A stretch of DNA of 64,000 nucleotides, from positions 1 to 64,000 of the IMG/VR virus record IMGVR_UViG_3300007513_002297; one strand, 5' to 3'. The notes below the pieces were generated by a model. That model made no database searches, was not told the DNA's origin, and worked only from the letters and a program-made list of their open reading frames with translations. Origin of the DNA: a virus. This document shows, piece by piece, positions 4,295-61,962 of this stretch. A program made the translations under genes and the position numbers. Numbering within the stretch: position 1 is the first letter of the stretch; each line of letters opens with the position of its first letter.

Positions 4295-4414
4295 ACAACA
4301 AGAGTCGATCCGCTATATCGTCGGAGTTTAAATTAACGATACGTGGCTGCCGAACGTCATGCCGGCAGGGGTTTCCGGTCATCCTAGGTTGCGCACAGAA
4401 AACCGGTCACTTTT
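4295..4414 (+). ncRNA. Structured leader between promoter and tRNA
   Basis: About 120 bases with no convincing ORF. Possible stems are TATCGT/ACGATA (near 4326-4351), CTGCCG/CGGCAG (near 4357-4378) and GGTTT/AAACC (near 4380-4404), and the segment CCGGTCA occurs twice. It is probably the 5' part of the tRNA precursor or a separate small RNA. No known RNA family was recognised, and I could not fold it as a second tRNA. Confidence 0.3.
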
Positions 4415-4487
4415 TGGGGTGTAGCATAAATGGCAGTGCATCTGGTTGTTACCCAGAAGGTTGGTGGTTCGACTCCACCCGCCCCAG
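4415..4487 (+). tRNA. tRNA-Asn (anticodon GTT)
   Basis: A 73-base cloverleaf: acceptor TGGGGTG paired with CGCCCCA, D-stem GCAT/GTGC, anticodon stem TCTGG/CCAGA with loop TTGTTAC (anticodon GTT), variable AGGTT, T-stem GGTGG/CCACC with loop TTCGACT, discriminator G. CCA is not encoded, in contrast to the tmRNA. It lies about 130 bases downstream of a consensus promoter. The asparagine anticodon fits the three Asn codons at the start of the tmRNA tag, but a link is only suggestive. Confidence 0.92.
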
Positions 4488-4513
4488 AATTATATCCTCA
4501 CAGTTGGGCGGTT

Positions 4514-40600: not shown

Positions 40601-41475
40601 AAGGTTACAGCGATCTTAGTGTGAATTTGTCTGAAGTTTATCCTGGTACCATGAAGACAGTAAGGGACGATAACGGACGAGAAGTAGGAATAGAAGGCGT
40701 CCTAGGTGTCCGCTATGGTGTCCAATTTTCAGCCTTTATAGACGGCACTCCTTATGAAATCACAGCAGTGGAAGTTGATGCGCTAGATTTGCCACTTTCT
40801 AAGTTTTCTAATTTAAATGCTGACAGTAAGTTGTTGTTATGTTTACTTAATCTCTTAAAAGAAGATGAAAAGTTCAAACTTGTGACGCGTTATATCGTGC
40901 CTTTTAACAAGCTTACTTCTATAGCTGCAATTTATACCGATATGGGCTTGTTGCCTTCTATCGGGGAAGTCACCGTTGCAAAGGGCGGCACTTATGAATC
41001 TGTTTTCCCGTGGACCGAAGCTGCTGGAAATTATATGGAGGGCGTCAACAAGCCAGGATTGGCGGCTACAGTAACTCTTGGCGAGGTCACCGTAGATGAG
41101 GAAACAGAGAGCGTAGTTGAGAATGTAAGTTTGGATGCCGCTAGCGCAGAGGTTGTTGGAGCTTGGTCTTCCAAGAAGGATAGGAACGTTGTGTCTTTAT
41201 TTTGGTTAGAATTTGACGCATGGGATCAAGTTCTTTTGAGGAACTCTTCCGGTAGAATTAAAAAGCTGTTTAGATCCTATTATAATTCGCGAGATTTTAA
41301 CCCAGACGATATTGGTAAAGGCATTAGAGGCGGACCTGGACAATTATTCTTTAACAAGATGCGGGGCTTATTAAAGCCGGCCCCTGGAAAACGTTTATTG
41401 CCGAGGTGGAGAAGGCGCCGACTAAGATCAAATCCATTTAATGCGAATGGAGAACTTTGTGAAAAAGAAAGTTGA
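34675..41475 (+). CDS. Giant virion structural protein (2266 aa), probable baseplate
   Basis: A 6.8-kb ORF without an obvious known domain over most of its length. The N-terminus has DANGDGLIDVCDE, an EF-hand/dockerin-like calcium loop, and CPECTP. The middle contains long helical stretches with clustered Cys (for example KVCELIGNALCKALEMAGDL), and the C-terminus is very basic (KRLLPRWRRRRLRSNPFN). It lies between the spike-like gene and the gp25-like gene and is read as one intact frame. Tail tube initiator, wedge or tape-measure roles are all possible; I favour the baseplate from context. Confidence 0.7.
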   Translation: MSESKFLPFQDANGDGLIDVCDEIVAPEVVACPECTPNPAALVPDWLTRDIYEPFLNEKLCKYQVTVTTSETTTRSPEDGDEAAAKLALDELYEESAETAILALLTVYNKDQSSTSVSAIKEVIEYTQFSLDVRPKSRLKLLYSVPKENLDALDDAEEEEEEDDAEAGDIIVTFPANELGPMMMRIRKTLRLYNRYLKTYRAVDNSNLLFLEDNSVFPLEIYGDWGGGMAKTEVMSKVLPQLDGFLNNYGYNIGNVGGLGNAGSGIWHGGDRLTEITFTFDSDYIIKKLKFFTEGCGEKPTIYTEDSGKIKKLKAESAWKDRTAMGYLISLREMDAEIQGRVAPNWIEFLKKYTYPEIYETDTVAYDSSPASCIGEALFNEGKQLGQDILDEVFSLGDALAYKFKDQICKKSLGEAMEEQASLGVIYDPNAQEDVNWYTMAQMQAFQTLEADEQVFMTFCARVLGMGSGLGDGDAVAMLDALWSEGFDDFKLCGLMSFLTEAINCLMGGLTLEEALTPIVESALAGMQINNFGDLFIGLPPEKQIELDELVKKNLESGNIFKDDSSLQAFSDSLAPSGGEGGDAVGEMDNAWQIVKPWEDDNLSESERWMDSTGMTSAELQDPTKETRTLAQQFDVGSEENRNQLSSSIVMQAYVKALLEVYQDNLLELVDEINKFPGAQMIANLLAFIDCPRPAFFNPSVMDFIKDIELPFCREMSDINFPRLVNPFGWFPKWVDIVQAIQVAFMAALQQLVITIIMKLIVKVCELIGNALCKALEMAGDLLEALATPGDCTQFSDMVREALCGENATDDAVNDTMVDMIGTLGVGAAAWADHDQTLAFAEDIGCSVTRKELADAMLGEMSNDMAAALVSLVENEYPDFQEALPHEEAVKSMMKGCGNLLPADFKDGLRDFVNQLPENDVMPAHPSLCATPEQLEDFCALRAELLSDRASPEQIAEMCDNLRETAKEDLGDLWRAANDFEGYIEDNMPPIISDPGCDNGLIPFEPDEAIATVTAALGNQMEQLKVDYGTDMIGNGPGEKNWGLVNMILSDTLGQPLTVHNRKASNKNKVMDFYTGLTGSSGAVSLDTILGYTAFLSPMAALMSLMYGDPEPEKQRGAFPTSVAKWLQDDIMDKAGYMYDSGSWDERRFGTYISSDTADVITASINNEWQADEEWNMSMDDLGFTGIFGRDLDLLSIPDLGYNIELESQFDPDNDKASGVKFIEKGRKALPDLAITFKDNAKGLASVPVGEYPTGSKEPEASSTWSYGYAVEAFLGDMIEDDEGNIVNRPDDNIRIKITDLYNTAAKLDDAANDMVSLEVNEDGSPGDNFGESIWTNLIKEDKVIPNLKYEFLSVDDTLLDVVMSPKLKTINTSPVDSTGKGDAFNLLDMYPNFLQTFQAQSAYTPQTVLLKEMINRTNGTSLSDTAAETFINDSIQTMSRLIFQEIGNNSGSWDYGAQYDMLSEADVEYGIYDLEMGTDENYPGWVPYADYEVDDGEGGTRELRNRDMKLGISFDQYKNEYVNETPDETRVFYLDPMTFGGNYMNPPIYIKPLASEGWLGMVDVLFPELSPCKPQTSDLVDFGNIQEIIDEIYPYIPEDERLKSDPDCIIERPYNRILMRSAKAGLVGLITAACRIYASTHMIKALPAFTTFSPRFPDTYSSAFASYIVENMETSFKDAGGGPEWVNAVFSDTEFWYAFLEQSVQLYAAMVDEGTVEAPPTVLEALFRINDMQEEYEYPDKEDLKAAKDTREASRLQTLKSYRQDINLEAIRETEEDAKLVLKEWVLEQLKYMSEKFMANMERFNMAPVVNNIDYYIMDNLCGIDGGLYVDSAVKPDGTVAASYVDLPTIPIEEDTAEEYHDAEAVAYYTAGGELVVGEDLDEEGLGVGEEYIGYYHVVIDENGNPSWMAGEYHSDEEMHDVLHPLVNQIIVEIGDIPELDVGSYGSENQLFTLEKYISIDGVRYAPTAATTIVKGYSDLSVNLSEVYPGTMKTVRDDNGREVGIEGVLGVRYGVQFSAFIDGTPYEITAVEVDALDLPLSKFSNLNADSKLLLCLLNLLKEDEKFKLVTRYIVPFNKLTSIAAIYTDMGLLPSIGEVTVAKGGTYESVFPWTEAAGNYMEGVNKPGLAATVTLGEVTVDEETESVVENVSLDAASAEVVGAWSSKKDRNVVSLFWLEFDAWDQVLLRNSSGRIKKLFRSYYNSRDFNPDDIGKGIRGGPGQLFFNKMRGLLKPAPGKRLLPRWRRRRLRSNPFNANGELCEKES

Positions 41476-41504: not shown

Positions 41505-41873
41505 GTGGCAGGATTAGCTCCCAAATTACCACTGACGTATGATTCCGTCAATGGGTTTAGTTTAATAACAGGCTTTCGCGGGCTAGCTAAACAGAATTTT
41601 AAAATGCTGATTTTAACAATTCCAGGGGAGAGAGTAATGGATCCAAACTTTGGCGTAGGCATAACTCAGTTTCTATTTAATAATTTTCAAGCCGACACTT
41701 ATATGCAAATAGATAGCAAAATCCGAGAACAGACCCGAACTTATATGCCTTTTATTGAAATTGTCGATATATCTTTTGATTCTACGGGTCAAGACAAGAA
41801 TTTGTTAGCACTCTCTATCAAATATGCTATTCCAAGAATTGGCGCGAGAGATTTGTTGGAATTCACTATTTAA
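41505..41873 (+). CDS. Baseplate wedge protein, gp25-like
   Basis: A 122-aa protein with GTG start and GAGGTGAAG upstream. The conserved DPNFGVGITQFLFNNF element is the marker of the GPW/gp25 baseplate family. It forms part of the wedge next to the tail tube in T4-like phages. It follows the 2266-aa structural gene and precedes the gp6-like wedge gene, the usual order. Confidence 0.88.
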   Translation: MAGLAPKLPLTYDSVNGFSLITGFRGLAKQNFKMLILTIPGERVMDPNFGVGITQFLFNNFQADTYMQIDSKIREQTRTYMPFIEIVDISFDSTGQDKNLLALSIKYAIPRIGARDLLEFTI

Positions 41874-41888
41874 AATTGAGGATTTTTT

Positions 41889-43688
41889 ATGGCAGATGAA
41901 CAAAAAAAGATAATTCCCATTGACTACACTCATCGCGAATTTGACAGCATTCGAGATGACCTAGTTGAGATTGCTGAAAGGCTTTATCCTGACACGTTTC
42001 AAGACTTCAGTGAGGCGTCTTTCGGCGCAATGATGGTTGATGCTGTAGCCTATGTGGGCGATCAGCTTTCCTTTTATTTAGATTATAACATTAACGAAGC
42101 GTTTCTAGACACAGCGTTTCAATATAACAATGTAGTCCGCCACGGACGCATTATGGGCTATAAATATACCGGCCGCCCATCGACTTATGGCAAAGTGGCA
42201 TTATTTATTAAAATTCCTGCTTCTTCAACGGGCTTAGGTCCGGACACTGCATATATCCCTATTATTAAGCGCGGCTCACGATTTACCTCAAACACGGGTT
42301 TAAACTTTGTACTGCTGGAAAATATAGACTTTGCGGCTCCCAAGAATACCACTGTTGTGGCTACGACGGATTCTTCAACTGGCGCCCCCACTCATTTCGC
42401 CATTAAGGCATACGGCAACGTGGTTTCAGGACACTTTGGGCGAGAATTAGTGAGCGTAGGAGGATACGAGAGATTTAAAAGAGTTACTCTTAAGGCAGGA
42501 AATATTTCAGAGATTATTTCTGTGATGGACGGCGAAGGTCATGAGTATTTCGAAGTAGACTATCTAGCGCAGGATATGGTCTTTAAAGAGGTATCTAATA
42601 ACAATTTTAAAAACGATAACGTTCCTTCTATCTTAAAGCCTTATTTGGTCTCGCGTAAGTTTGTGGTAGAAAAAAGCCGAGATCGCACATCTCTTCAGTT
42701 TGGAAGCGGAGATGCCGCCGCCTCCAATGTTGTGGCAGATCCTCAAAAAGTGGCATTAGATATTTTTGGAAAAGATTATGTAACAGACACTACGTTTGAT
42801 CCCACCAAGCTTTCAAAGAATCGCAGTTATGGAATTGTTCCCACTAATACTTCTTTATCGGTAATATATCGAGTGACTAATCCTCTTGATTCTAACTTGG
42901 GAGTTGGAAATTTAAATAAAGTTTCCTCGGTTAAATTAGAGTTTGCCAACAAAGATGCATTACTGACGGCTACCACGAACGATATCAATGCTTCAGTTGA
43001 AGTAAATAACGAAGAGCCAATTGTAGGCAGCGTAAGCAATCCCTCAACTAACGAACTTAAAAGAAGAATTTATGATACCTTTCCCAGTCAAAATCGTGCA
43101 GTAACGCAGGCTGATTATGAGAATATTGCTTACAGAATGCCTGCAAAATTCGGCTCTATCAAACGTTGTTCGGTACAGCGCGATCCCGATTCAATGAAAA
43201 GAAACTTAAACATGTATGTGTTATCAGAAGATGAATTTGGAAAATATGTAGCCTCTAATGGTACCATTAAAAATAATTTAAAAACTTGGTTGAATCATTA
43301 TAGAATGATTAATGACACTGTAGACATATTGGATGCTTATATTATTAATTTTGGAATTGACTTTGTTGTGACGCCAAGCATTGGCGTTGACAAATATGAC
43401 TTGTTGGCATCCTGCATTGCTCAACTAAAAAAGAAATTTGGAGGAGCCAAATATTACATCGGTGAACATTTAATGGTGACAGAGATTTATAGCGAATTAA
43501 ACAAAGTAAAAGGAATTTTGGATGTGGTTAAAGTTACCGTCACCAATAAAAATGGAGGCGTATACTCGCAGACTGAATTCGATATTAATTCAAATTATTC
43601 ACCAGAAGGGACTTATATTATAGCTCCTAAAAATTGTATATTTGAGCTTAAGTATCCAGATACTGATATTAAAGGAAAAATTAGGTAA
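41889..43688 (+). CDS. Baseplate wedge protein, gp6/J-like
   Basis: A 599-aa protein. The start is PIDYTHREFDSIRDDLVEIA and the early segment is MMVDAVAYVGDQLSFYLDYN, characteristic of T4 gp6 and phage P2 J-like wedge proteins. QNRAVTQADYENIAYRMP, later in the protein, is also a gp6-family landmark. It would form the inner ring of the baseplate. It overlaps the DNRLRE-like gene by one base (TAATG). Confidence 0.87.
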   Translation: MADEQKKIIPIDYTHREFDSIRDDLVEIAERLYPDTFQDFSEASFGAMMVDAVAYVGDQLSFYLDYNINEAFLDTAFQYNNVVRHGRIMGYKYTGRPSTYGKVALFIKIPASSTGLGPDTAYIPIIKRGSRFTSNTGLNFVLLENIDFAAPKNTTVVATTDSSTGAPTHFAIKAYGNVVSGHFGRELVSVGGYERFKRVTLKAGNISEIISVMDGEGHEYFEVDYLAQDMVFKEVSNNNFKNDNVPSILKPYLVSRKFVVEKSRDRTSLQFGSGDAAASNVVADPQKVALDIFGKDYVTDTTFDPTKLSKNRSYGIVPTNTSLSVIYRVTNPLDSNLGVGNLNKVSSVKLEFANKDALLTATTNDINASVEVNNEEPIVGSVSNPSTNELKRRIYDTFPSQNRAVTQADYENIAYRMPAKFGSIKRCSVQRDPDSMKRNLNMYVLSEDEFGKYVASNGTIKNNLKTWLNHYRMINDTVDILDAYIINFGIDFVVTPSIGVDKYDLLASCIAQLKKKFGGAKYYIGEHLMVTEIYSELNKVKGILDVVKVTVTNKNGGVYSQTEFDINSNYSPEGTYIIAPKNCIFELKYPDTDIKGKIR

Positions 43689-45292
43689 TGGCTATAAAAC
43701 GCTATACAGCTTCGGCCGACACCACAATTGTTAATGCTTTTCAGCCGAACATGCAAACGCGCGGCACGGGCGCCAATATGGGATATGCAGATGTTTTAGA
43801 AACTTTTTCTGTATATGGGCGACAAGCTACAGGATCCCAAGAGCTTTCTCGGATTCTCATTCAATTCCCGATTAGTACTATTTCGGCTGATAGAACAGCC
43901 GGCACTATTCCTGCAAGTGGGAGTGTGACATTCTATTTGCGTATGTACAATGCGCCTCACTCTAAAACAGTGCCAGAAGATTTTACGTTATCGATTCTGC
44001 CTGTGGGTCAATCTTGGCAAGAAGGCGTCGGATTGGATTTAGAAACTTACAAGGATTTGACCAGAGGCAACACTGGTGCCAACTGGATGAGTGCGTCAAA
44101 TACTGCACCGTGGACCGGTAGCAATTATACTAGTAATGATTGTGTCGGAGGTTCTTATCTCACAGGTTCTGGAGATCCCAATTTTAAAGTTGCATATGAA
44201 GGCGGCTTGTCTGATATAAAGCTCGACATCACACCGTTGGTTGAGCATTGGATGGCTGGCACTATTTCGAATTATGGTGTAGGTGTGCACTTGTCTTCTA
44301 GTTATGAGGCTAGCGCATCCGTGGGCGCCAATACGGCTTCAGCACCAGTACTGCCGGTTACAGGTGGCGCCACCAAATCTTATTTTACGAAGCGATTTTT
44401 CGCTCGTGGGACTCAATATTTTTTCAAGAAACCTGCGATTGAGGCTCGATGGGATTCGATAGTTAGAGATGATCGAGGCGATTTCTGTTACAGTAGCTCG
44501 CTAGCTCCTCCCAGCGACAACATGAACACGCTTTATTTTTACAACTATATTCGCGGCGAACTTAGAAACATTCCCGATTTGGGGAGCGATAATCGTGTTT
44601 ACGTTAGCATGTTTTCCGGAAACGCTGCCAATACGGCTCCATCGGCATCGGCGCTATTGTTGGCAGCCGACAATGAAGGTTATGTGCGCTCAGCGGCTCC
44701 AACAATTGTAACTGGCGGGCTGGTGTCCACTGGAATCTATAGTGCCTCATTTGCGCTGACAGCGGCATCCACCCCTGTGACCACTCTTTATGATGTGTGG
44801 TTTACTGGGAGCAATGCGACAGTGGCTACTTCGTCCGCTACTCAATACTTCACGGGAACTGTGGCTCCACAAGTTGTTAAGCCTACCCAAACCGTTGCTA
44901 AGCCAGTTTATTATTTAAATATTACCAATTTAAAAGATAAATATCGTTCTAATGAAACTGCTCGATTTAACTTATATATTAGAAATAAATTTTGGAGCCC
45001 CAACATTTACACGGTAGCTACCACCACACCAGAAAGCACCACCATCCACAGTGCTTCTTATAGGGTTTATAGAGTGATGGATGCTTATGAAGCGGTCCCA
45101 TATCACACTGGTTCAGACTTGGCCACGGGTCTTTCTTATGATGTGTCTGGAAATTATTTTGATTTTGATATGAATTTATTAGAGCCTGGATATGCATATG
45201 CATTTAAATTTGCTTTTTATGATCCTGCATTAAGTTCATGGACGGAGCAACCAGAAGTCTTCAAGTTCAGAGTAGAGAGTTATGAGTATTAA
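43688..45292 (+). CDS. DNRLRE-like beta-sandwich structural protein
   Basis: A 534-aa protein with an N-terminal DNRLRE-like domain: YTASADTTIVNAF, then SRILIQFPIST with conserved Gly-rich turns, and WMAGTISNYGVGVHLSSS near residue 200. This is a putative carbohydrate-binding or scaffold domain found in surface and phage proteins. The rest is rich in Ser, Thr, Ala and aromatic residues, typical of beta structure. It lies between wedge genes and the 3728-aa protein, so a baseplate-tip or receptor role is possible. Confidence 0.65.
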   Translation: MAIKRYTASADTTIVNAFQPNMQTRGTGANMGYADVLETFSVYGRQATGSQELSRILIQFPISTISADRTAGTIPASGSVTFYLRMYNAPHSKTVPEDFTLSILPVGQSWQEGVGLDLETYKDLTRGNTGANWMSASNTAPWTGSNYTSNDCVGGSYLTGSGDPNFKVAYEGGLSDIKLDITPLVEHWMAGTISNYGVGVHLSSSYEASASVGANTASAPVLPVTGGATKSYFTKRFFARGTQYFFKKPAIEARWDSIVRDDRGDFCYSSSLAPPSDNMNTLYFYNYIRGELRNIPDLGSDNRVYVSMFSGNAANTAPSASALLLAADNEGYVRSAAPTIVTGGLVSTGIYSASFALTAASTPVTTLYDVWFTGSNATVATSSATQYFTGTVAPQVVKPTQTVAKPVYYLNITNLKDKYRSNETARFNLYIRNKFWSPNIYTVATTTPESTTIHSASYRVYRVMDAYEAVPYHTGSDLATGLSYDVSGNYFDFDMNLLEPGYAYAFKFAFYDPALSSWTEQPEVFKFRVESYEY

Positions 45293-48200
45293 AAAACTTT
45301 TTGATTCAACCAATAAAAGCAGAAATTATTTATCCGATACCGATCAAAAAGATGCTTTTGAGAGTGTAGAGTCGGCAAGAAATGCCCGCGCAATTAAAAC
45401 CACTCAAGACACTTTCATCCCACAGGTAAATTATGAAAAGCCTGTAAATTTTGCTAAATACGGCTCGGCATATCTTTATTATAAATCTGCAATTGAAAGA
45501 ATTCACGATTATTACCCATATGATGGGTCAGATGCAGAGATAAACGAATTCTATAATGGTTGTCTTCCTATAGAACAATACCTTTTCGATAGTAAGTATC
45601 CGCGCACAACGGGGTACATTACGATGAGCGCTGGAGGGTGGGGATCTCGAACTAATGTGTTGGCTGCTAGCGGCGGCTATGGTTCATCAAGTGCTTCCGA
45701 GTATATTACTTTTTATGGCGGACCCAACACCATCACCCACACAAAGCTTCAGGATGTTTTTCCAAACCCATATGACGACAAATATCAATATTCCAACATA
45801 TACGATACAGACATTTATACTACTGAAGGGCTTCCGACCACTTACGGTTCAGGCTCTCGCGAATCAAACCTTAAAAGCGATTTTGATAAAGGCGTAACTG
45901 TAGAGTTTTGGTTTAAAACTGGCTCGACTAATCCTGTGGCCACATATGCCAACAAAACTCAAAAAGAAGTAATTTTTGATTTATGGAACAACGAGCTTAG
46001 CTCAAGTGCAGATTATGGACGTATTACTATTGGGATTAATTCCTATACGGCGTCTTCACCATTTTATGTAACAGTGCAATCGGGGACTGCCGCTAGCTAT
46101 AACGTTTCAGGGTGTTTTGAGCAAGCCATCGGTACGGGCTCGTGGACAGGTTCTTTCACAGATGATACTTATTGTTTGTCATCATGGAAGCATTATGCCT
46201 TTTCAATGTTCAACTCTGGTAGTGATTTTCTTATTAAACTGCACGTAGATGGCGAATTAAAGGATACTTACACCTCTTCATCAATGACATTGGGAGCCCT
46301 CAACTCTAAAAACATGATGGGTCGTATTGGCGGACTCTTGACTGCTCCTTCGGGAACTATAGGATCCACCGGTTCTGGAAGCACTGCTGCCACAGTTAAT
46401 GCCTTGTATGCTGGTGCCGGCAAACTAGAGGGAGCACTCGACGAATTTAGATTTTGGAAAGTACGCCGAAACTCTAATGAAATTGCGCGATACTGGAAAT
46501 CGCAAGTAAGAGGTGGCACAAACACAGATATTTCTAATACGACCTTAGGGGTCTATTATAAATTTAACGAGGGTATAACGACCGATACGACTACGGATAG
46601 CATCGTTTTAGACTACTCAGGTCGCGTAAGTAACGGCGCGTGGACCGGATACGTAGCTAGTTCGCGTAATACAGGATCTGCGCTGGTTTCTTCTAGCGCG
46701 AGAACCGAAGAATATTTAGATCCCATTGTATATTCGACTCATCCTAGTGTTACTAGTTTAAAAACTGATTTGCTCAATAAGGGCGAAAAATACGATTTTA
46801 CTAATAACTCTGCATTTGTAAATATGATGCCGTCTTGGGTACTGGAAGACGATGAAGGTTTAACAAGTGATTTGAGAAAAATGTCTCACATTGTGGCCAC
46901 ATATTTAGACAAGTTAAGGCTTCAAATTGAAGCGGTACCGAGTTTTAAAGGAAGTATATACACCACAGCTTCAAGCGCTCCTCTTCCATTTGCTCAACAC
47001 CTACCTCAATCTTTAGGGCTTTATACTCCCGATCTTTTTATTGATGCCACGGTAATGGAAAAGTTTTTAAATCGCGATCAAGATACTTTCTTTGAAGGGG
47101 ATTTAACAGAAACAAAAAACCTCATCTATCTCAATTTGTACAATAACCTTGCTAGTATCTATAAAGCTAAGGGCACGGAAAAGGCTATTAAAAATGTTTT
47201 TAGATGTTTTAATATGGACGATAAACTTCTTCGTTTAAAAACATATGCAAACAATCAAGTTTATGATTTACAAGATAACCTTAAACAATATATTTATGAA
47301 GATACTGCTATCAATCATAATCTCGCTGCTAATATACAAGGTGTCGTATATCAGCGCAAAGAAGCTGGAGATGCCAACTCTTTAGGATATATTTCGGGTA
47401 CCTATGGTCGTACTGTGGAAGGCGGCTCGGCAGCAGTTCGCGAAGGAAATTATGGATTCACAGCTGAAGCCAGTATTGTCTTTCCTACTTTTGATATGCG
47501 CAGCGAGAATGCCCTAGTTAATCGCGAATTTTTAACTTCCTCTCTCTTTGGAATGCACACTATCATAACCAGTTCTAATACTTCAAAGTTGGGAACTGAC
47601 ACACGGTTTCCTTCGGGCTCTCAAGACTACGCAAACTTCCAAGTCTTGGCAATTCGCGATGAAAAGAATTCTAAAAATGTTAGATTTCAACTATCAGCAT
47701 CTAATGATCCGTTTGCTGGGCAATTTACTGAACTCACAAGTAGTACTTTCTTTAATGTTTATGATAACGAAGAGTGGCACTTTTCTGTCAGAATGAAGCC
47801 GACCAATTATACTCTTACAAATATGGTTGATGGCTCAGGTGTTTATAGTTATATATTAGAGTTTAGAGGCGTTAATGCTGTTTTGGATACCATTCAAAAT
47901 AGCTTTGTAGTGACCGCTTCTATTGGCAAGGATGCCGGTCAGAATTTTCTTCAATCGGCAAAAAGGTTATATGCCGGCGCACGCAGAACAAACATCACTG
48001 GCGCCACACTGAATCCTAGTGATGTTTTGTTTGGAAGCATGAAATATTATGCCAAATATATAGAAGATGGCACCCTGGATCAACACCTCTATAATGAAAG
48101 AAATGTTGGAGTTTCAGCTTCTTATCAGAACCTTTCCGCGTTAGATAGTAGCCTTACAGATGCAGATGTGCTTAATAGTAACACCTTAGCACTTAATTGG

Positions 48201-51200
48201 ACTTTTGATAATATCACCTCTTCTAATGCTGCCGGCAATTTTGGATATGTACAAGATGTAAGTTCTGGCTCCTCGGGCCGCCGCAATGATCACTGGATTG
48301 GCGGCATTGCTGGATGGCAACACACTGGCTTTGGTTATGGATTTGCTACCAGTTCTGCTGATATAGTTAGTAAAGATCTTTATAACGCTTTGAAGTTTAC
48401 CGATCCCGAAGAAGCAATATCTTCAACCATGGTACAGGTTTTAACAAATGACGATATCGTATATGGAGTCACAGAGCCTCCACCAACCTTTTTTCACTCT
48501 ATAGAAAAGAGCATGTATAATGCCATTTCTGAAGAAATGTTATTATTCTTTGCTGGCGCTATTGATTTTCATAATATTATCGGAGAGCCTGTTAATCGTT
48601 ATCGCGAGAGATATAAGGTATTAGAAAAGCTAAGACAAACGTTTTTCCGAAGAGTTACTACTGTTTCGACTGTTGAGAAGTTTATTGATTATTATAAATG
48701 GTTTGATGATGCCATGGCTCTTATCGTTGGGCAGTTGTTGCCCGCATCGGCAGAGCTTGTAGAAGATGTCGCAGAAGTGGTCGAAAGCCACGTTTTAGAG
48801 CGCAACAAATACAAGACTCCGTTTCCTACTATAGAGTTTGTAGAGCCAGAGCCGGAGCCGGCTTCTATGCTTGGTGTCTCTTTCTTGAAGACAAGGTTTG
48901 AACTTATAAGTTCTCCCACACCCTCCTCGCCTCGTGCCACCAACATTAGAGAAGAATTTTGGAAAGTCCGCGCCCTACGCGATTCGCAGGATCTTTCGAG
49001 TAGTGTCGCGCGCGTAAATGTAGATAGACAAATTATAGCAAATCAAGCCAACGTCACAAGCGACACTAGTGCTAGTAATTTTAGGACTCGAGATGGAACC
49101 AAATATCAAAGGACGAACTTTTTTCAACGACATCGCTCTCTTCCATATCAAATTACAGCCGACCTAATAGACACCAAATTATCATCCGAGGACCCTCTTG
49201 AGGATCAATACGTTTCTTACGAATATCAAGGTGGAACAAACTTTTCAGAGCCTCGCCCAAAATTGGATTATTTTTATCACGCAACGCGCCCTGCAGGCGC
49301 CATTAACCGAACGCATGGCGCCTATGTTCCTGTAAATGTATTGCTAGCACCAATGGCTGAATTGGTGCCGTGGACTGAGATTGAACTTAATCCCGCTAAT
49401 AGGATCTCCGGAAGCAAAGAAAAAAGACATTTTAAGCTTTGGTATGGTCCCGATTGGGATGGCGGCTATGGCCCCAATAATGTAAAAAATAGTATTGGAT
49501 TTCCTTTTAATATTATGAGTTCAAGCGTGAGCGGAGGCTATAATAAACAGATTGTAGAAAATTTGGGAACATCCATGGAGTTGACCAATTTACACCATGA
49601 CGTATATGGACCCGAAATGGAAAGACCAATGCAGGGACCGTTTACAGAGGCTGTAGTAGGAGGGCACCAGTCTCGACATGTGGCACTCAATGATGGCACA
49701 GATGCTTGGTATAATCGACCTGAAGCTTGGAAGATTCTTTTGGGCACATGCGACACAATTAAAGGTGTCGCCGGCGCAATTGGGGTTGTCGGCGCCGATT
49801 ATCCATGGCCAGAATCCAATGGTGAGGGCATAAACCCTTATCCACTGACGGGCGCCCAAAAAGCTGTATATTATCGAGGATTTACAGCCAAGAGTCCAGT
49901 TAACATCCGCAACATACACCTCACAGGAAGCGCATTAGGAAACTATAGTCAAAATTATGAAGTTGTATGCACGTTTGGAGGGTATGTCAATCCACGCCAA
50001 TTCGTGGAAAATCCTCCCACTCTTCCCACAGAGCTTACCCAAACGCCTTCTGGTACACAGGCGCGCTCTTTCTTGGGGATTCGTAGGACCGATAACTCTC
50101 ATTTTGATTTTGTGCCCGACTATTCTGTCGGATATTTGACAGCTTCTACTGGTAAGTCGGTTATACTCAACCATTTTGCTGCACCAGGCAGCATAGAGAC
50201 CATGGGCGTTGGATATAAAGATGTGCGAGCCTCTGAGTTTTCTGCCTACATTCCTTGCACTTATAGAAATTGGTCTGTCCGGCGCCCCTTCCAAAATATG
50301 TCCTCTAGTGTGGTTTCGGAAGCAACAGGATCCGGGACGCCTGGAATTAGAGTTTCAGATGTCAATGGTTTAGATCTCGGGTGGGATTACAATACGATGG
50401 CGCACTCTGCGCAATTTGGACGAAGCAGCATTATATATCCGCCAGACGCCCAGAGAACTGCCTATGATTTAGCTATTAATTTTATGGGTTACAGCGAGAC
50501 TGAGATTTACCGTTCGTCGCAGTATTTGCAGGGTTGGTGGAGATTCAGAACGCTCGAGCCAGGAGGCGCTGGCTGGGGAGTTGATAGTAGCGACAAAGGA
50601 CGCACAGGAACATTTCCTACGGCTGCGGACAAGCCCACATATTCCGGGTCTCTCGGACCTTCGAAATACGTTCAAACATCTAGTGCTGGATGGGACGGCG
50701 GCGCCGAACGCATGAACATTGGAACAGCAGCCACTTGGGATGCACTCATAGGCGATGCTGCCGGCAGTACCAAGCAGATGACATTCGCGGCTTGGGTCTA
50801 TAAAACTGGCGACGGCGGCGGCACCTATGGTCGCATAATTGATTTTGGCTCCGGCGATGTGCGATTCTATACGAATAATGTGGAGTCTATCTATTTTGAC
50901 GTTACTGCTTGGACTGGAGCAAATGCTCAATGGCATGTAGGTCAAGCCTTTTCATTAAACACTTGGACCCATATTGCAGTAACGTACGATGCCGGCAGTA
51001 CCGCCAACGAACCTGTCATATATGTCAACGGTGTGGCTCAGACAGTTACAGAGGACACGGCTCCACTCGGCACTTATGGCGGCATTGACACCGATGCATG
51101 TTTTGTTGCGAATAATTTCGATGCAAATCGAGGATTCGAAGGTCAGTTGTGCGATATGGGGGTTTGGAATTCGATCTTAACAGCAGAGGATGTGAAGGCT

Positions 51201-54200
51201 ATCTATAACCAGAGCAAACTACCGAGTAAAGTAGGACCCGGAGCCATCAATGTTCAGCGCCCCAGCATGTACAAGGTTAATCGTAATCCACGCATGCGCC
51301 TGAAGCCGATAGGTTATACACACACAGATGGAGTGGAGACGATCACCTATATGACGGCGTCTTCTTATGATAATTTCTATGTTCAACATCAAATTCCGAG
51401 AGCAGACAGACAATATGCATGGGTAACAGCCAGTATAGTGGATGCTGGAGACTTTAGATACCATGGCATGGCACAAGTTGGTGGACCGCTTGCCGGCTAC
51501 TACTCTAGTTCGGCCGAAGGATACACTGCTTATTTCAACTTTATGAGCGCTAGCAGTGTTTTAGGAAAGATCGGCGGTGGCGCCGACATGCCTATTTACC
51601 AACCGGCAAACCGTTTGAATATTTACGTCATAGATCCAGTTAACCTTTCTACTAATACCCTCGGACTTCTCCCTGCTCAATCAGTCACTAGTTCTTATAA
51701 CACGTTATTGTTGGACGAGTACAACAGCACGCCTTATGCTTTAAATTTGAGCGCCGATTATCTTAACTTGTTGTTAACCCAGAGGCGAAGTACTTTTGAG
51801 GATCGACACATTCCATTTATGTCTCCTGTTAAGAATCACATACTTCAAAAACACGCACAGCAGTCTCAAATAACTCTTGATGATGGGCGAGATAATTTAC
51901 AAATTTATCCGTTTAAAGTTGCATCTATGAGAGGAAGACCGGTGTACATTAACATGAGTGCGAACGATCTTGATGCCACCTATTGCTTTACATGGAACAA
52001 TGAACTGCTTTATTGCAGTGATCAGACTCTAAATCAAAAATTAGATGTGAGAGGGGATAAAACAACTATTTTTGATAAAACAATTGAAGTGGCAGATGCA
52101 TCAAATGTTTTTGATATTAATTGGATCTTATATTCCGAAATGATGTTCCCCTCGCGAGTAAAGGAATTCACATCAGCATCCGCCGAACGCCCTAATTATG
52201 ATAATAAGTTTTGGAGAACGAGCGCTACAGATAGGCTTTCGCTTGGGTCGTTTCCAGACCGAACCCCCCAGCCTCGGTGGTATAATTTGAACGGTCCAGA
52301 TTGGAACTCAACGCCGTCTTATTCTTATTCTTATATTGGACAATCTTCACTTCAAGGCTGGTGGCGACTGAACCAGAGTGTAGCCGACGGCGGCGATTTT
52401 GTAGATAGTTCTACCCACAGTAGAAACGGCACCAGTTCCGCCGGCGGAACACCAGCGCAATCTACAACTCTTTATCCATCAAAATATATTCAAACTGCTA
52501 GCTGTACTTTTGATGCTAGCGATGATGCAATCAATATTGGCACTGCAGCCTTATGGGACGACATTATTGGCAATGATACCGCCGCCGGCTCTACAGAATT
52601 AATGACATTTTCAGCATGGATTTATAAAACTGGCGACGGCGGCAGCAGTCTCGGTCGTATATTCGATTTTGGTCTTGGCGACCTTGCGATATATACTACT
52701 GCTACGGAAAAGATTTATTTCAATGTGAAATGGACGGATACGGGGGGAGCAGGCACCAACGGCATCGCGTATTGGACCACACCTGATAATCCTTTTACTC
52801 TTGAGACTTGGACCCACATAGCTATTACTTACGATGCTACCAGCACATCTAATAATCCTATAATTTATGTTAACGGAGAGGTGGTGGCACTAACAGAAGA
52901 TGAAGCCCCTGTCGGAGATTATTACGGATTTGTTTCTCAAGATTGTTTTATAGGAAATCGTGCCGGCGTCGACCGAGCTTTCGAAGGTCAAATAGCAGAT
53001 GTTGCCATATGGAACTCGGTGTTATCTTCCGTGGAGATTAAAGCTCTCTATAACGCAAAAACAGGCGTTTACCCCAGAGGTACTAATTCATTTGGTATAC
53101 CCGTCTCACAAAGCTCATGGCCACTAGATGCGCCTATTGACTTTTTAACGCGAACTGCGGTGCCCTATATAACACCGATAGACTATTCTTTGGTTTATTC
53201 AAATAGTGCCGGCGAATTACAAAATACATATGTACAAATAGTAAGTGGAAATACTCCCCGTGGATTTGCGGCCGCTCCTGCCCTTGCTGTTGGCGGTTTA
53301 TTGGCTCGAAAACATACCATAGCCACTGCGCGTAGTGTGGTTTCGCCCTCTTCTGGCAAACAGATTTCAGCAACCGGGACCATGGATTATAAAGCGCCTG
53401 GTCCTTCGGGCGCCTATAACCAAAGGTTGGCACATCAACTATATGCCGGCGAATCTGAATGGCAAGCCGGCACTCAAGCAGGAATTATCGTTAAAAGCGG
53501 TAATGGACCGGATGCTGTTTCGATCTTTGAATCCCATTCTTCGGCTCCATTCTATTATAATTCTTATGCTGATTTTATAGATGAAATAAGAACAGTGGCA
53601 AAAGATTATGCCATTGTGCCAGAATTTAGAATTAGCGAACACGTTGATGAGTATCTTAAATACGGAATTTCAGCCAATAATAAATTTGATTGGGCTGAAA
53701 TTCCGGGAGCTTATACTGATAGTGGACACCCCGTCGATAGTTCTCAGCCCGGATTCTATAAAGATTACTCAAATTCAGAGTTTGCACATCACTTCTTGAC
53801 ATTAAAGAATAAAACTCTCACAGAACCAGTAGAAATTATGTTGGAAGTGAATGCTGCAATTCGGTATAATCCTTATAAAGGATTTTATCCACAACAACGC
53901 ACATTGGATTTAATAACTCAGTTTTCAAAATCATTTGGCACAAGCCTTATGTCGACTAACCTGGCGGGCACCCCTGTCCAACAGCGAAACGGCTGTCTTC
54001 GACCCTTAGCACAAGCATTGTTTGCGCCTGGAGTGTTGTATAACACTATTAAATCTGGGCTGGCTGTAGACTATCCTGTTGTGATAGATGAAACTAAGGT
54101 TAGTCGCCACAATGCTTATGGATATACAACAGCATCCAACGGCAGCGCTAACGTCGGAAGTACAGGATTAGCTAGTACTGATATTTGGATGATTACTTCC

Positions 54201-56468
54201 ACCGGCTCTTTAATTCCTCCGCTGCCTAATGCGGTTGCTGTAGAAGGGTACGACGGGGGACAATTTTGGGATTATAGAGTTTCGTTTGATGACCTTCTGA
54301 ATCCGTCTAATTTGCGTGATCTGGCTTTTTTCGACGTCGAACCTCACCCTTCTTGTTCTTTATCCGGCATTACAGCATCTATCATGGCAGAGCCCGCCGA
54401 TGAATCTTATGCCCTCATGGCATCAAATTTTGCTGCAGCTATTCCTGAATTCTTTTTAAAGGAAACAGAGTTCACCAAACTTGAGTCTGAGCCAGTCTCG
54501 GATGGGTTGCGATTTGAGACTGGTTCTGTATACGGCGCCCGTCTAAAATTGCGTTGTTCCAAGGAGGGCACGCGCACATATGGATTCGAATCTGGCTCTT
54601 CTGGCAATTCGGTTGCATATGGACGGCTTGGAGCGAGAGTTTTTGACACAGATAGAAGTATCTTTTTAGATTCAGTATACCCTCTTCCGCAAGATCCTAG
54701 GCAAAATCCAGCATTCCAATCAACGTTCACCATGGAAAGTCGCCCTTCATCGTTCGGACCACCTGTCTCTGGTCGTCCAACTGCGAGTGTTATCGAAATG
54801 ACCGCATCTAATACTCGCCCAGCAGACAGCATGAACGGCTTTAATTGGTCTTATACTCCTCCCTATTATGATGGAGAAGCTTGGGTTGATTTTATATTTA
54901 CTCCTACAACTTCGACCACCACAAAAGCGCCCGTGACTTATGACCTGGAGAAGATATTATCTGAAATTGAGTATAAATATTGGCGCTGCGATCCGGGAAT
55001 TTCCGCTTCGACTGTTCTTTCTTCTTCCACCAACATGGTAGGCACCGTGTTACTCCCCACTTTTAGTGGAAACTGTGGACCTATTTCATGGCGCGCCGCT
55101 CATCAAGCATATCCTACAGCCCCTATTGGTAGTTCTGAAACTCCTTTGATTTACGATGGGGCAAACATTAATGACAACGCCATGCAACTTAGTGCTAGTC
55201 TTAATATATTTGGGATTGAAAAGGTGCTTAGTTCTACCAAAGATAAGTTTGGAAATCAAATTTCTACACAAAATCAAACTGCTGGTTCAAAATGGGTTAT
55301 TCAGCCCAAGATGGAAACCCCAATGCTTAACTTTAGTCATACAGGCTCTATGCCGGTATCGGCATCGACACCTCTTTATGGGTCTGCCTCTGTTTCTACA
55401 GGCATGTGGCGCCAATTTGGCATAATTGATCCCGACCCCAATAAAGGTATCTTTATGGAAATTGGACCGATTCCTCCGCAATGGCTTAAAAATCATTACG
55501 AAGTTATAACATATCCCACAATGTACAATGGCAGGCAGCCGGCAATTAAAGGCCAAAACGCTTATAGAAACATTAAACCTTTAACAAATGTAATTAAATT
55601 TAAACCACGAAAAAGAAAAGCACGCCTAGGCGAATTAGCAGAAACTAAAACTATTAAAGAAGCAATAGTTATAGTACCTTACAAGATAGATTCGTCCGCA
55701 CAAGCGCCGGCAATAGGTGGTCAAAACTCACAAAGTAATGCCCAAGCTTCAAAGCGATTTTTTGGCATAAGCCGCGATAGAATTAGGGCTACCTCTACTG
55801 AAGAGATAGGAAGTGCCACAGGAGATTCTTTAGATGCTGCCGGCATGTCTATTAGAGAATTGGTTAAGAAAATGGAGTGTTATGTGTTGCCACCTTGGGC
55901 TGATTTTCTTAGTAACAAATCTATCGATCCTTTTGTGATGTACATGTTGGAGTTTGAATATGAGTTCGATAAAGATGATTTAAGCTACATATATCAAGGA
56001 CTTGCGCCCCGCAATTCAAAAAACATGACACTTACTTCACGATCTACAGCCCATGAACTCAACCCCACAGAGCTAATGAGTGCCGAAGATGTTCTCGATC
56101 CACATCTTAGGTGGATGGTATTCAAAGTTAAGCAGAGATCTATGGTAGAATATGAAGATATTATGGTGCCACAAGTTGGAGAATCTAGTACTGCACGCGA
56201 TGTATTTGACTTTACCACAACCGATGAAGGTTATAAAATTGGCTATAATTGGCCATATGATTATATATCTTTCGTTGAATCGATCAAATTCGATGTTAAG
56301 GTGCTTTATAAAGAAACTGACGAACAAAAAGCAAAGAAACGGCGCGATAAAACAGAAGAAACTTCTGACGCACCCGCCGGCGATCTTTTTGCACTTGATA
56401 TTGAGTCGGAAGGTGCCGAAGAAGGGCGACCAACCCTTGGCGGCAGAGTCGTGGGACCAAGGAAATAA
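45282..56468 (+). CDS. Giant LamG-containing structural protein (3728 aa)
   Basis: An 11.2-kb intact ORF, the largest in the window. Three concanavalin-like (LamG) modules are visible: about residues 200-410 (VTVEFWFKTGS, DEFRFWKVRR), 1749-1980 (MTFAAWVYKTGDGG, WTHIAVTYDAGS) and 2357-2594 (MTFSAWIYKTGDGG, WTHIAITYDATS). Such modules bind glycans or proteins. The rest is Ser/Thr/Asn-rich and probably beta-structured. A DPHLRWMVFKVKQ segment near the end and a Lys/Arg-rich, acid-ended tail close it. Likely a baseplate or tail-tip receptor-binding scaffold. It overlaps the preceding gene by 11 bases. Confidence 0.75.
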   Translation: MSIKKLFDSTNKSRNYLSDTDQKDAFESVESARNARAIKTTQDTFIPQVNYEKPVNFAKYGSAYLYYKSAIERIHDYYPYDGSDAEINEFYNGCLPIEQYLFDSKYPRTTGYITMSAGGWGSRTNVLAASGGYGSSSASEYITFYGGPNTITHTKLQDVFPNPYDDKYQYSNIYDTDIYTTEGLPTTYGSGSRESNLKSDFDKGVTVEFWFKTGSTNPVATYANKTQKEVIFDLWNNELSSSADYGRITIGINSYTASSPFYVTVQSGTAASYNVSGCFEQAIGTGSWTGSFTDDTYCLSSWKHYAFSMFNSGSDFLIKLHVDGELKDTYTSSSMTLGALNSKNMMGRIGGLLTAPSGTIGSTGSGSTAATVNALYAGAGKLEGALDEFRFWKVRRNSNEIARYWKSQVRGGTNTDISNTTLGVYYKFNEGITTDTTTDSIVLDYSGRVSNGAWTGYVASSRNTGSALVSSSARTEEYLDPIVYSTHPSVTSLKTDLLNKGEKYDFTNNSAFVNMMPSWVLEDDEGLTSDLRKMSHIVATYLDKLRLQIEAVPSFKGSIYTTASSAPLPFAQHLPQSLGLYTPDLFIDATVMEKFLNRDQDTFFEGDLTETKNLIYLNLYNNLASIYKAKGTEKAIKNVFRCFNMDDKLLRLKTYANNQVYDLQDNLKQYIYEDTAINHNLAANIQGVVYQRKEAGDANSLGYISGTYGRTVEGGSAAVREGNYGFTAEASIVFPTFDMRSENALVNREFLTSSLFGMHTIITSSNTSKLGTDTRFPSGSQDYANFQVLAIRDEKNSKNVRFQLSASNDPFAGQFTELTSSTFFNVYDNEEWHFSVRMKPTNYTLTNMVDGSGVYSYILEFRGVNAVLDTIQNSFVVTASIGKDAGQNFLQSAKRLYAGARRTNITGATLNPSDVLFGSMKYYAKYIEDGTLDQHLYNERNVGVSASYQNLSALDSSLTDADVLNSNTLALNWTFDNITSSNAAGNFGYVQDVSSGSSGRRNDHWIGGIAGWQHTGFGYGFATSSADIVSKDLYNALKFTDPEEAISSTMVQVLTNDDIVYGVTEPPPTFFHSIEKSMYNAISEEMLLFFAGAIDFHNIIGEPVNRYRERYKVLEKLRQTFFRRVTTVSTVEKFIDYYKWFDDAMALIVGQLLPASAELVEDVAEVVESHVLERNKYKTPFPTIEFVEPEPEPASMLGVSFLKTRFELISSPTPSSPRATNIREEFWKVRALRDSQDLSSSVARVNVDRQIIANQANVTSDTSASNFRTRDGTKYQRTNFFQRHRSLPYQITADLIDTKLSSEDPLEDQYVSYEYQGGTNFSEPRPKLDYFYHATRPAGAINRTHGAYVPVNVLLAPMAELVPWTEIELNPANRISGSKEKRHFKLWYGPDWDGGYGPNNVKNSIGFPFNIMSSSVSGGYNKQIVENLGTSMELTNLHHDVYGPEMERPMQGPFTEAVVGGHQSRHVALNDGTDAWYNRPEAWKILLGTCDTIKGVAGAIGVVGADYPWPESNGEGINPYPLTGAQKAVYYRGFTAKSPVNIRNIHLTGSALGNYSQNYEVVCTFGGYVNPRQFVENPPTLPTELTQTPSGTQARSFLGIRRTDNSHFDFVPDYSVGYLTASTGKSVILNHFAAPGSIETMGVGYKDVRASEFSAYIPCTYRNWSVRRPFQNMSSSVVSEATGSGTPGIRVSDVNGLDLGWDYNTMAHSAQFGRSSIIYPPDAQRTAYDLAINFMGYSETEIYRSSQYLQGWWRFRTLEPGGAGWGVDSSDKGRTGTFPTAADKPTYSGSLGPSKYVQTSSAGWDGGAERMNIGTAATWDALIGDAAGSTKQMTFAAWVYKTGDGGGTYGRIIDFGSGDVRFYTNNVESIYFDVTAWTGANAQWHVGQAFSLNTWTHIAVTYDAGSTANEPVIYVNGVAQTVTEDTAPLGTYGGIDTDACFVANNFDANRGFEGQLCDMGVWNSILTAEDVKAIYNQSKLPSKVGPGAINVQRPSMYKVNRNPRMRLKPIGYTHTDGVETITYMTASSYDNFYVQHQIPRADRQYAWVTASIVDAGDFRYHGMAQVGGPLAGYYSSSAEGYTAYFNFMSASSVLGKIGGGADMPIYQPANRLNIYVIDPVNLSTNTLGLLPAQSVTSSYNTLLLDEYNSTPYALNLSADYLNLLLTQRRSTFEDRHIPFMSPVKNHILQKHAQQSQITLDDGRDNLQIYPFKVASMRGRPVYINMSANDLDATYCFTWNNELLYCSDQTLNQKLDVRGDKTTIFDKTIEVADASNVFDINWILYSEMMFPSRVKEFTSASAERPNYDNKFWRTSATDRLSLGSFPDRTPQPRWYNLNGPDWNSTPSYSYSYIGQSSLQGWWRLNQSVADGGDFVDSSTHSRNGTSSAGGTPAQSTTLYPSKYIQTASCTFDASDDAINIGTAALWDDIIGNDTAAGSTELMTFSAWIYKTGDGGSSLGRIFDFGLGDLAIYTTATEKIYFNVKWTDTGGAGTNGIAYWTTPDNPFTLETWTHIAITYDATSTSNNPIIYVNGEVVALTEDEAPVGDYYGFVSQDCFIGNRAGVDRAFEGQIADVAIWNSVLSSVEIKALYNAKTGVYPRGTNSFGIPVSQSSWPLDAPIDFLTRTAVPYITPIDYSLVYSNSAGELQNTYVQIVSGNTPRGFAAAPALAVGGLLARKHTIATARSVVSPSSGKQISATGTMDYKAPGPSGAYNQRLAHQLYAGESEWQAGTQAGIIVKSGNGPDAVSIFESHSSAPFYYNSYADFIDEIRTVAKDYAIVPEFRISEHVDEYLKYGISANNKFDWAEIPGAYTDSGHPVDSSQPGFYKDYSNSEFAHHFLTLKNKTLTEPVEIMLEVNAAIRYNPYKGFYPQQRTLDLITQFSKSFGTSLMSTNLAGTPVQQRNGCLRPLAQALFAPGVLYNTIKSGLAVDYPVVIDETKVSRHNAYGYTTASNGSANVGSTGLASTDIWMITSTGSLIPPLPNAVAVEGYDGGQFWDYRVSFDDLLNPSNLRDLAFFDVEPHPSCSLSGITASIMAEPADESYALMASNFAAAIPEFFLKETEFTKLESEPVSDGLRFETGSVYGARLKLRCSKEGTRTYGFESGSSGNSVAYGRLGARVFDTDRSIFLDSVYPLPQDPRQNPAFQSTFTMESRPSSFGPPVSGRPTASVIEMTASNTRPADSMNGFNWSYTPPYYDGEAWVDFIFTPTTSTTTKAPVTYDLEKILSEIEYKYWRCDPGISASTVLSSSTNMVGTVLLPTFSGNCGPISWRAAHQAYPTAPIGSSETPLIYDGANINDNAMQLSASLNIFGIEKVLSSTKDKFGNQISTQNQTAGSKWVIQPKMETPMLNFSHTGSMPVSASTPLYGSASVSTGMWRQFGIIDPDPNKGIFMEIGPIPPQWLKNHYEVITYPTMYNGRQPAIKGQNAYRNIKPLTNVIKFKPRKRKARLGELAETKTIKEAIVIVPYKIDSSAQAPAIGGQNSQSNAQASKRFFGISRDRIRATSTEEIGSATGDSLDAAGMSIRELVKKMECYVLPPWADFLSNKSIDPFVMYMLEFEYEFDKDDLSYIYQGLAPRNSKNMTLTSRSTAHELNPTELMSAEDVLDPHLRWMVFKVKQRSMVEYEDIMVPQVGESSTARDVFDFTTTDEGYKIGYNWPYDYISFVESIKFDVKVLYKETDEQKAKKRRDKTEETSDAPAGDLFALDIESEGAEEGRPTLGGRVVGPRK
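50526..51221 (+). repeat. LamG module, copy A of an internal pair
   Basis: Second LamG module of the 3728-aa protein, duplicated at 52350-53065. Both start LQGWWR, share the core AW-x-YKTGDGG, then WTHIA-x-TYDA, and end in L-W-N-S-x-L and KA-x-YN. An exact 21-base match lies near 50799 and 52623. The copies differ elsewhere, so the duplication is old or under diversifying change. Confidence 0.7.
52350..53065 (+). repeat. LamG module, copy B of an internal pair
   Basis: Third LamG module of the 3728-aa protein, clearly related to the copy at 50526-51221. It is slightly longer, with an insertion around residues 2475-2490 (KWTDTGGAGTNGIAYW). Spacing between copies is about 1.1 kb of unrelated sequence. 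Confidence 0.7.
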
Positions 56469-60978: not shown

Positions 60979-61962
60979 ATGGCATACATGAAAAGCACTA
61001 AAACGAAAAGCAAAAATGCAAGCAAAACTTTAAGCAAAACCTTAAACAGAGGTGGCTCTGGAAAACAACAAACTACACCACAGCGCACCAGTCGCACCAA
61101 AACGAAGAGCAAAAATGCAAGCAAAACCTTAAACAGAGGTGGCTCTGGAAAACAACAAACTACACCACAGCGCACCAGTCGCACCAAAACGAAGAGCGCA
61201 AATGCTAGCAAAAATTTAACTAGAGGCGGATCCGGAAAGCAAACAACTTCCACACAAAGAGGGGGAAAGTCTAGCAAATCCTCGCTAACTATAAGCAAGA
61301 ACGCCCAAACACTTCGCACTTCAACATTAAAAGCAAGAGCAGACCGATCAGCAAAATCTAAATCTAATAATAAGGCACTCATAGCTGGACAATCAGTAAA
61401 CTTGACAACAGAGCCAAACAAAGCTGCAATTCTAAAGGGAACAGAAAAATTCATGAGAACTCAGCCCACCAATAATTATGCGCCTAAAACTGCTACAACA
61501 GCACAAGTCGCCACTCAATTTTTGCATTTGATTGGGGTGTGCACCGACTCTTCTAAGGGTGCCGCATATTCGCTATTAGACGATCAGTCCGACAAGCTTA
61601 AATGTAACGAAACTTCCGCTGAAAATCCTAATATATTGGATGAATCGACGGCCAAAAACCAAAAGAAAGAATATCCCACCGGTGAAGATAAATTTCCCTC
61701 CCAAGATGATCCTTTTTATGAAGAAGATGAAGCCCAGCCTCTTGCTTCTGCTTTACAAGAACTAGATGCACAAACCGCAGAACAAGAAGCTCAAAAAACA
61801 ATTTCTTTCGCTGCAGCCTTGGCTACTGCCAATGCAGGAATCGAAAAGGAAGAAACTACGCCTACGAGTAATTCGGATACTTATCAAGTAGATCAAGTAG
61901 AAGGTTTGTCGGATACGACGGGCGGCAGTTCTTCCAACGTAGCTACGTGGGGGATGATGTAA
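60979..61962 (+). CDS. Protein with Lys/Ser-rich tandem repeats (327 aa)
   Basis: The first 95 residues carry three copies of a basic repeat with the core SKNASKTLNRGGSGKQ and a TTPQRTSRT-like tail. The middle stays Lys/Ser-rich and the C-terminal third becomes acidic and Gln/Ala-rich (FPSQDDPFYEEDEAQP). AAGGAG is found upstream. It may bind nucleic acid or an acidic partner, or act as a flexible linker between virion parts. No family recognised; the reverse frame that mirrors it is not a gene. Confidence 0.65.
   Translation: MAYMKSTKTKSKNASKTLSKTLNRGGSGKQQTTPQRTSRTKTKSKNASKTLNRGGSGKQQTTPQRTSRTKTKSANASKNLTRGGSGKQTTSTQRGGKSSKSSLTISKNAQTLRTSTLKARADRSAKSKSNNKALIAGQSVNLTTEPNKAAILKGTEKFMRTQPTNNYAPKTATTAQVATQFLHLIGVCTDSSKGAAYSLLDDQSDKLKCNETSAENPNILDESTAKNQKKEYPTGEDKFPSQDDPFYEEDEAQPLASALQELDAQTAEQEAQKTISFAAALATANAGIEKEETTPTSNSDTYQVDQVEGLSDTTGGSSSNVATWGMM
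61000..61260 (+). repeat. Tandem repeats of about 87 bases (three copies)
   Basis: Copy 1 is 61000-61098 (99 bases, containing an extra four codons), copy 2 is 61099-61185 (87 bases), and copy 3 is 61186-61260 (diverged and shorter). Copies 1 and 2 are almost identical, which points to a recent duplication or copy-number change. Confidence 0.85.

Follow-up and report, generated by a model that had tools for sequence, protein, structure and literature searches.

The giant protein encoded at positions 45282-56468 (plus strand) of the analysed DNA is best read, with a probability of about 0.6, as a baseplate scaffold with exchangeable lectin cassettes at recurring loops, the exchange of which would retune adsorption of the virus. 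The analysed DNA, designated here as the window, is a stretch of 64,000 nucleotides belonging to a 71,271-base IMG/VR virus record; the protein of 3728 aa is encoded in a single open reading frame (ORF), as the earlier note on this DNA had claimed, and its residues are numbered W1-3728. Among 72 distinct full-length proteins the scaffold is conserved, whole domains are inserted into it at recurring sites, one LamG domain can be nested inside another, and the phylogeny of the inserted domains disagrees with the sites which they occupy.

According to the proposed mechanism the giant protein would be the conserved baseplate scaffold of an uncultivated virus lineage of contractile-tail type, with a backbone that contains an N-terminal LamG, universally present, and a further, hidden LamG-like domain. 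Whole extra domains, either LamG lectins (about 265-340 aa) or a type measuring about 130 aa, would be accommodated by surface loops at a few recurring positions, and modules 2 and 3 of the window protein would be two such LamG cassettes. Recombination is supposed to gain, lose, and replace cassettes while the scaffold keeps its frame, allowing the cassettes to travel between sites and lineages. Most likely they would add low-affinity, high-avidity baseplate contacts with host-surface glycans, and therefore a change of cassette would retune adsorption.

Gene neighbourhood and homologues of the giant protein

The gene order in the window, all on the plus strand, is a gp25-like baseplate wedge gene (41505-41873; phrog_261, E 6.8e-17; PF04965, E 7.4e-13), a gp6-type baseplate wedge gene (41889-43688; phrog_6, E 6.3e-18), a 534-aa gene of the same cluster (43688-45292), for which no Pfam or PHROG family was matched, and then the giant protein. 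The gp25 family PF04965 was above cut-off in 35 of the 36 long records. Because of this order after the gp25/gp6 wedge genes, and with a weak gpI motif in addition, the giant protein is probably located in the baseplate. The motif, YKAKGTEKAIKNVFRCF, belongs to segment W625-660 (47154-47261, plus strand; position mapped from relatives), which resembles P2 gpI (Tail_P2_I). At E 0.01 the corresponding family PF09684 was found in 7/36 records, all in the giant frame and one above cut-off, the window record having no match at this threshold; among 54 homologues it was weak in three (best E 0.12). The hhalign comparison with P2 and 186 gpI gave a probability of 1.8 and E 0.028 with the same KGT..AI motif, and E values of 0.14-0.89 were obtained with the remaining six proteins; homology of the giant protein to P2 gpI is at most weakly suggested.

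A 2266-aa ORF (34675-41475), which has a long counterpart in relatives and matched no PHROG family, lies immediately before the baseplate genes. Elsewhere in the window there are a phosphomannomutase-like gene (2334-3137), a tRNA-Asn (4414-4488), a PhoH-like gene (4966-6303), and an 87-base tandem repeat of 2.6 copies (61021-61242) inside ORF 60979-61962, whose first part contains many K, R, S, and T residues. Beyond the window, ORFs resembling RuvC, Hsp20, and primase were recognised by eye (L017).

All homologues come from uncultivated metagenome contigs. Scanning of uncultivated virus contigs with the whole protein returned four loci, and scans with each half of the backbone yielded 240 and 213 confirmed relatives; the best 80 of each were used and gave 102 full-length homologues, with 72 distinct full-length proteins of 2947-4034 aa including that of the window. 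In 50,697 phage records residues 1-3000 had no match at E 1e-5, module 2 had one partial match in a human faecal phage (30% covered, 35% identity), the small cassette described below had none, and the N-part of a distant relative had one weak match (LR756508, 7% covered). One locus was obtained from GTDB genomes, in a candidate division WOR-3 MAG (30%). The PDB sequence search gave nothing for pieces A3 and A5, and a match of piece A2 at E 0.47 was not believed.

The conserved C-terminal backbone, W2600-3728 (53079-56465, plus strand), is 49-71% identical to L005, L006, and L016. L006 lacks modules 2 and 3 and is otherwise collinear in its backbone; L005 possesses module 2 with a second LamG directly after it (tandem, W1719/W2008) and lacks module 3; and G001 lacks module 3, its module 2 site being unreadable because a run of 10 N (an assembly gap) falls there. 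In the distant viruses L227, L232, and L233 LamG domains stand in separate genes of the same cluster and the shorter N-part of the giant protein forms a gene of its own; separate shorter genes in place of the giant protein in these three and in L187 suggest fusion or splitting. L238 and L239 contain LamG ORFs without backbone homology.

LamG domains and the sites that receive them

Three LamG modules had been reported in the protein by the earlier note, and all three are real. Module 2 (W1719-1985, 267 aa; 50436-51236) and module 3 (W2319-2599, 281 aa; 52236-53078) match Laminin_G_3 with 67.9 bits (50754-51197) and 68.2 bits (52593-53042), above the Pfam cut-off of 27.6, while the N-terminal LamG (W106-414; 45597-46523; all three on the plus strand) reaches 15.4 bits (46059-46325) and stays under it; the score of the entire giant protein is 124.9 bits. 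A LamG HMM, built and iterated on the very same protein set, found the N-terminal domain in 72/72 proteins as a universal part of the backbone, and in the distant relatives L227, L232, and L233 its counterparts exceed the Pfam cut-off. By fold comparison a fourth, LamG/pentraxin-like domain was recognised in the backbone at about W673-1038 (47298-48395, plus strand; AF2 model and VIA), where the Pfam scan is blind. Third-position G+C of module 2 is 0.461 against a mean of 0.363 (sd 0.045) for windows of the gene, and in module 3 it is not raised (0.381).

The AF2 model of module 2 (pLDDT 86.8, pTM 0.84) and its VIA comparison indicate a lectin-type jelly roll, that is, a ConA-like beta-sandwich. 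VIA ranks domain 4 of the GH43 arabinanase AbnA first (Z 19.4, rmsd 2.8, 192 aligned, 15% identity), the structure of which was determined with a sugar present, and toxin binding domains, pentraxins, and CBM40 are also among the top matches. The many clostridial neurotoxin binding domains in this set (9-16% identity) share the jelly roll only, and a toxin reading was rejected, no sign of toxicity being present. In the model of W415-1200 (pLDDT 70.1, pTM 0.59) the domain W673-1038 is matched with PAPP-A (VIA Z 16.0, rmsd 3.7, 218 aligned), and its Foldseek matches include ulvan and alginate lyases. These lyases, together with the Pfam description of Laminin_G_3 as 'Concanavalin A-like lectin/glucanases superfamily', could indicate that the modules are present or former enzymes of the ConA-like superfamily which cut surface polysaccharide, and not lectins; however, module 2 finds its best fold matches in binding domains, none of them catalytic, which makes an enzymatic role very unlikely. 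Judging from the fold, the cassettes would bind sugar. Protein contacts and structural roles are known for LamG folds as well.

Of the 72 proteins, 33 carry extra LamG domains, amounting to 39 inserts with 41 cassettes, and the other 39 proteins carry none. Many relatives lack modules 2 and 3, which have the form of clean insertions: the module 2 site W1719 has 6/72 holders and is empty in 66/72, and the module 3 site W2319 is filled in the window virus only (1/72), module 3 being known from one assembly. Two further docking sites are empty in the window (both on the plus strand), namely W2008-2018 (51303-51335), which holds LamG in 19/72 proteins, and W330-336 (46269-46289), which holds it in 5/72. 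The cassette at the latter site is nested inside the N-terminal LamG and flanked by its two halves (at W334 in L028, L053, L164, L170, and L171). The remaining sites are W1470-1526 with six holders, W693 with two, and W1585 and W2734 with one each. As an independent check, a module-profile scan with boundaries set by BLAST gave 39 loci, several of them on contigs already counted; 34 were in the giant protein, with boundaries at W1716-1718 (18), W328-402 (13), W693-697 (2), and W2738 (1), and 5 were in other ORFs. The site W2319 was filled in none of these 34 loci. The possibility raised in the earlier note that modules are identical in all relatives does not hold, as their number, position, and sequence vary strongly, and the same variability fits receptor tuning; the interpretation given in the note is in this respect supported in part.

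The giant protein also receives cassettes of a second type, about 130 aa long, in L067, L068, L156, L172, and others, with at most 7 HMM matches per protein, and no convincing Pfam or PHROG family was found for this type. L067 and L156 share this small cassette at 86% while their backbones are 38% alike, and in L156 an array of small cassettes splits the N-terminal LamG. The small-cassette HMM also matches 605-701-aa ORFs of the cluster, which by position and length are taken as counterparts of the 534-aa gene.

Tolerance of many domains and sites, including the 130-aa type of no known family, and the 39/72 proteins with no extra LamG would also suit a reading of the cassettes as decorations of the virion surface, comparable to many Ig-like domains, that are near-neutral or stabilising and hardly influence host choice. 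This is unlikely, though deserving of consideration, since a single fold class, known for sugar binding, accounts for most of the large inserts, these stand at recurring sites in frame, and comparable CBM insertions do bind host cells, as stated in the available part of PMC6669499.

Cassette history and the 21-base match

The cassette tree comprises 54 domains, among them row s254 of L156, which is the N-terminal LamG split by the small-cassette array. It disagrees with site, since L145_s1514 is sister to L032_s2008 (support 100/99) and the AU test rejects site 2008 as a single clade (p 1.6e-5). The same test did not reject a single clade in the case of site 1719 (p 0.079) or in that of site 334 (p 0.26). 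The group to which the window's cassettes belong contains all seven W1719 cassettes and no W2008 cassettes. There is thus a partial link between the type of a cassette and its site.

Among 853 cassette pairs the cassettes are more alike than the backbones in 15, with 62.5% against 48.8% in L145/L032 and 62.9% against 50.4% in window/L033, and it is in only a few pairs that frequent recent cassette transfer is demonstrated. In L187 the backbone pieces have 20-28% identity and the cassette 43%. Since cassettes are less alike than backbones in 838/853 pairs, most cassettes are old or fast-evolving.

On the backbone tree the occupancy of site 1719 requires 6 changes for 6 holders, that of site 334 requires 5 changes for 5 holders, and that of site 2008 requires 13 changes for 19 holders; any-cassette occupancy requires 16 changes. 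L070 and L038 differ in occupancy although their DNA is 94% identical along the 970 bases preceding the insert, L034 and L104 are another close pair with different occupancy, and in both pairs the insert replaces 15-17 bases. The giant protein as a DGR target was considered and is unlikely because no reverse transcriptase (RVT_1) was found in 36 records, several of them perhaps incomplete. A wider proposal makes the giant protein a dedicated cassette scaffold with several docking loops, one of them lying within its own lectin domain; lectin and 130-aa domains from a common pool would move among these loops across a whole marine-type virus lineage, where adhesion would change by domain transplantation and not by point mutation or tail-fibre swapping; it is put forward tentatively, its chances being judged somewhat below even.

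Modules 2 and 3 had also been described in the earlier note as an internal duplication bearing an exact 21-base match. The match itself is real: copy 1 (50799-50819, inside module 2), encoding YKTGDGG, and copy 2 (52623-52643, inside module 3; both on the plus strand) share codon phase, and the length exceeds the longest repeat, 15, obtained when the gene was simulated 100 times with a first-order Markov model. The repeat search with a minimum length of 20 revealed no module-scale repeat and did not list the 21-base match. Within 239 loci the tract occurs only in L001 and L002, both cut from the window, and it sits in a conserved portion of the module family. When the aligned proteins and the codon usage are taken into account, at least 21 identical bases in succession have p 0.0024 (5000 simulations), which goes beyond protein conservation; therefore a short gene-conversion patch that homogenised the tract between the modules is possible.

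The duplication as a recent event is not supported, because the synonymous codons of the two modules agree at chance level. With M and W excluded and the expectation taken from the codon usage of the gene, the same codon is used at 52 of 121 identical residues (43% against 39% expected, z 0.85), and at 45 of 114 without the seven tract codons. In the tree the modules are not sisters and have their neighbours in other viruses: the L033 module, which occupies the same site, is paired with module 2 (97/92), and the L164 module, from another site, with module 3 (95/80). An origin of modules 2 and 3 by tandem-like duplication within this gene has in its favour that they are the most similar same-protein pair (49-52%, with 129/250 aligned residues or 52% identical, against 15-20% in the remaining seven pairs), that the exact tract has the low p value given above, and that the AU test did not reject modules 2 and 3 as a single clade (p 0.111), which leaves room for an old duplication. 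Nevertheless such an origin is improbable in view of the chance-level codons, the closer relation of both modules to those of other viruses, and the presence in those viruses of cassettes from this group at other sites.

Function and comparison with known systems

Glycosyltransferases and a sulfotransferase-like gene belong to a long run of glycan genes in the window (8104-30543), which also includes NeuB (21792-22493) and, at 19767, 28739, and 29569, genes of the GDP-mannose-dehydratase/epimerase type. The suggestion of self-glycan binding, in which the modules would hold sugars put on the virion by the virus's own glycan genes, draws on the presence of NeuB and GDP-mannose-dehydratase-type genes in this record and on the occurrence of GDP_Man_Dehyd in 31/36 records, the N-terminal LamG being universal as well. 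However, these genes are about equally common without extra modules. GDP_Man_Dehyd was above cut-off in 16/20 records with extra LamG and in 14/15 without it (Fisher p 0.36), and NeuB, which is present in 14/36 long records, was found in 6/20 and 7/15, respectively (Fisher p 0.48); the comparison covers long records of unequal completeness, some of them near-copies (L132 and L032), and the 36th record, G001, has both glycan genes and stands outside it due to the assembly gap at the site. The absence of association therefore makes the glycan genes a lineage trait not tied to the extra modules, and self-glycan binding is given hardly any credence, while for the window virus itself both this binding and the internal duplication could still be true.

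In the preferred reading, that of exchangeable lectin cassettes on a baseplate scaffold, the extra LamG cassettes probably set what the virus sticks to, and by parallel with the CBMs inserted in proteins of lactococcal phages they may tune adsorption. If cassettes bind host sugars, the adhesion repertoire of uncultivated viruses could be read from sequence alone and the recurring sites would mark permissive loops of a contractile-tail baseplate. The pattern also opens a test of whether cassette change accompanies host change. In a literature search of open-licence full texts no paper was found on LamG cassettes at recurring baseplate sites, and the 72 homologues present a putative core baseplate protein that hosts exchangeable lectin domains with frame and backbone kept.

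The window shares its gene order with P2 (gp25/W, gp6/J, gpI) and T4 (gp6 to gp7), differing by one 534-aa gene between the gp6-type gene and the giant protein, and in size the giant protein (3728 aa) differs from P2 gpI (176 aa) and T4 gp7 (1032 aa). Lectin domains of the same family, Laminin G3, are described in jumbo phages on tail fibres and virion parts, whereas insertion sites, cassette exchange, or a scaffold do not appear in the available part of that account (PMC7824862). The mosaicism of phage receptor-binding and tail proteins, as presented in the accessible portion of PMC10684548, is similar in its domain shuffling, which includes baseplate proteins, but concerns domain combinations across protein classes, in contrast to the fixed scaffold with recurring sites in 72 homologues.

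The closest parallel is offered by the evolved Dit, MTP, and neck proteins of lactococcal 936 phages, Lactobacillus phage J-1, and Oenococcus phage OE33PA, at least as far as the consulted sections of PMC6669499 and PMC8540738 describe them; in the former source the CBMs inserted in these proteins bind host cells. Evolved Dit, like the giant protein, is an adhesion-device protein with internal beta-sandwich sugar-binding inserts varying among relatives, and in the giant protein likewise an extra domain is inserted in a structural protein of the putative adhesion device and is missing in relatives. No Dit family is present among the Pfam and PHROG matches of the giant protein, and in Foldseek the hidden backbone domain matched CBM2 of the J-1 evolved Dit (5ly8) at E 2.5e-4 with poor superposition (rmsd 13.5). 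The differences are that evolved Dit, MTP, and neck proteins belong to siphophages, while the giant protein follows gp25/gp6 wedge genes, and that here the inserts are LamG cassettes with many alternative sites in one protein and LamG-in-LamG nesting. By this analogy the best reading is that the giant protein would work in the manner of CBM insertion in evolved Dit.
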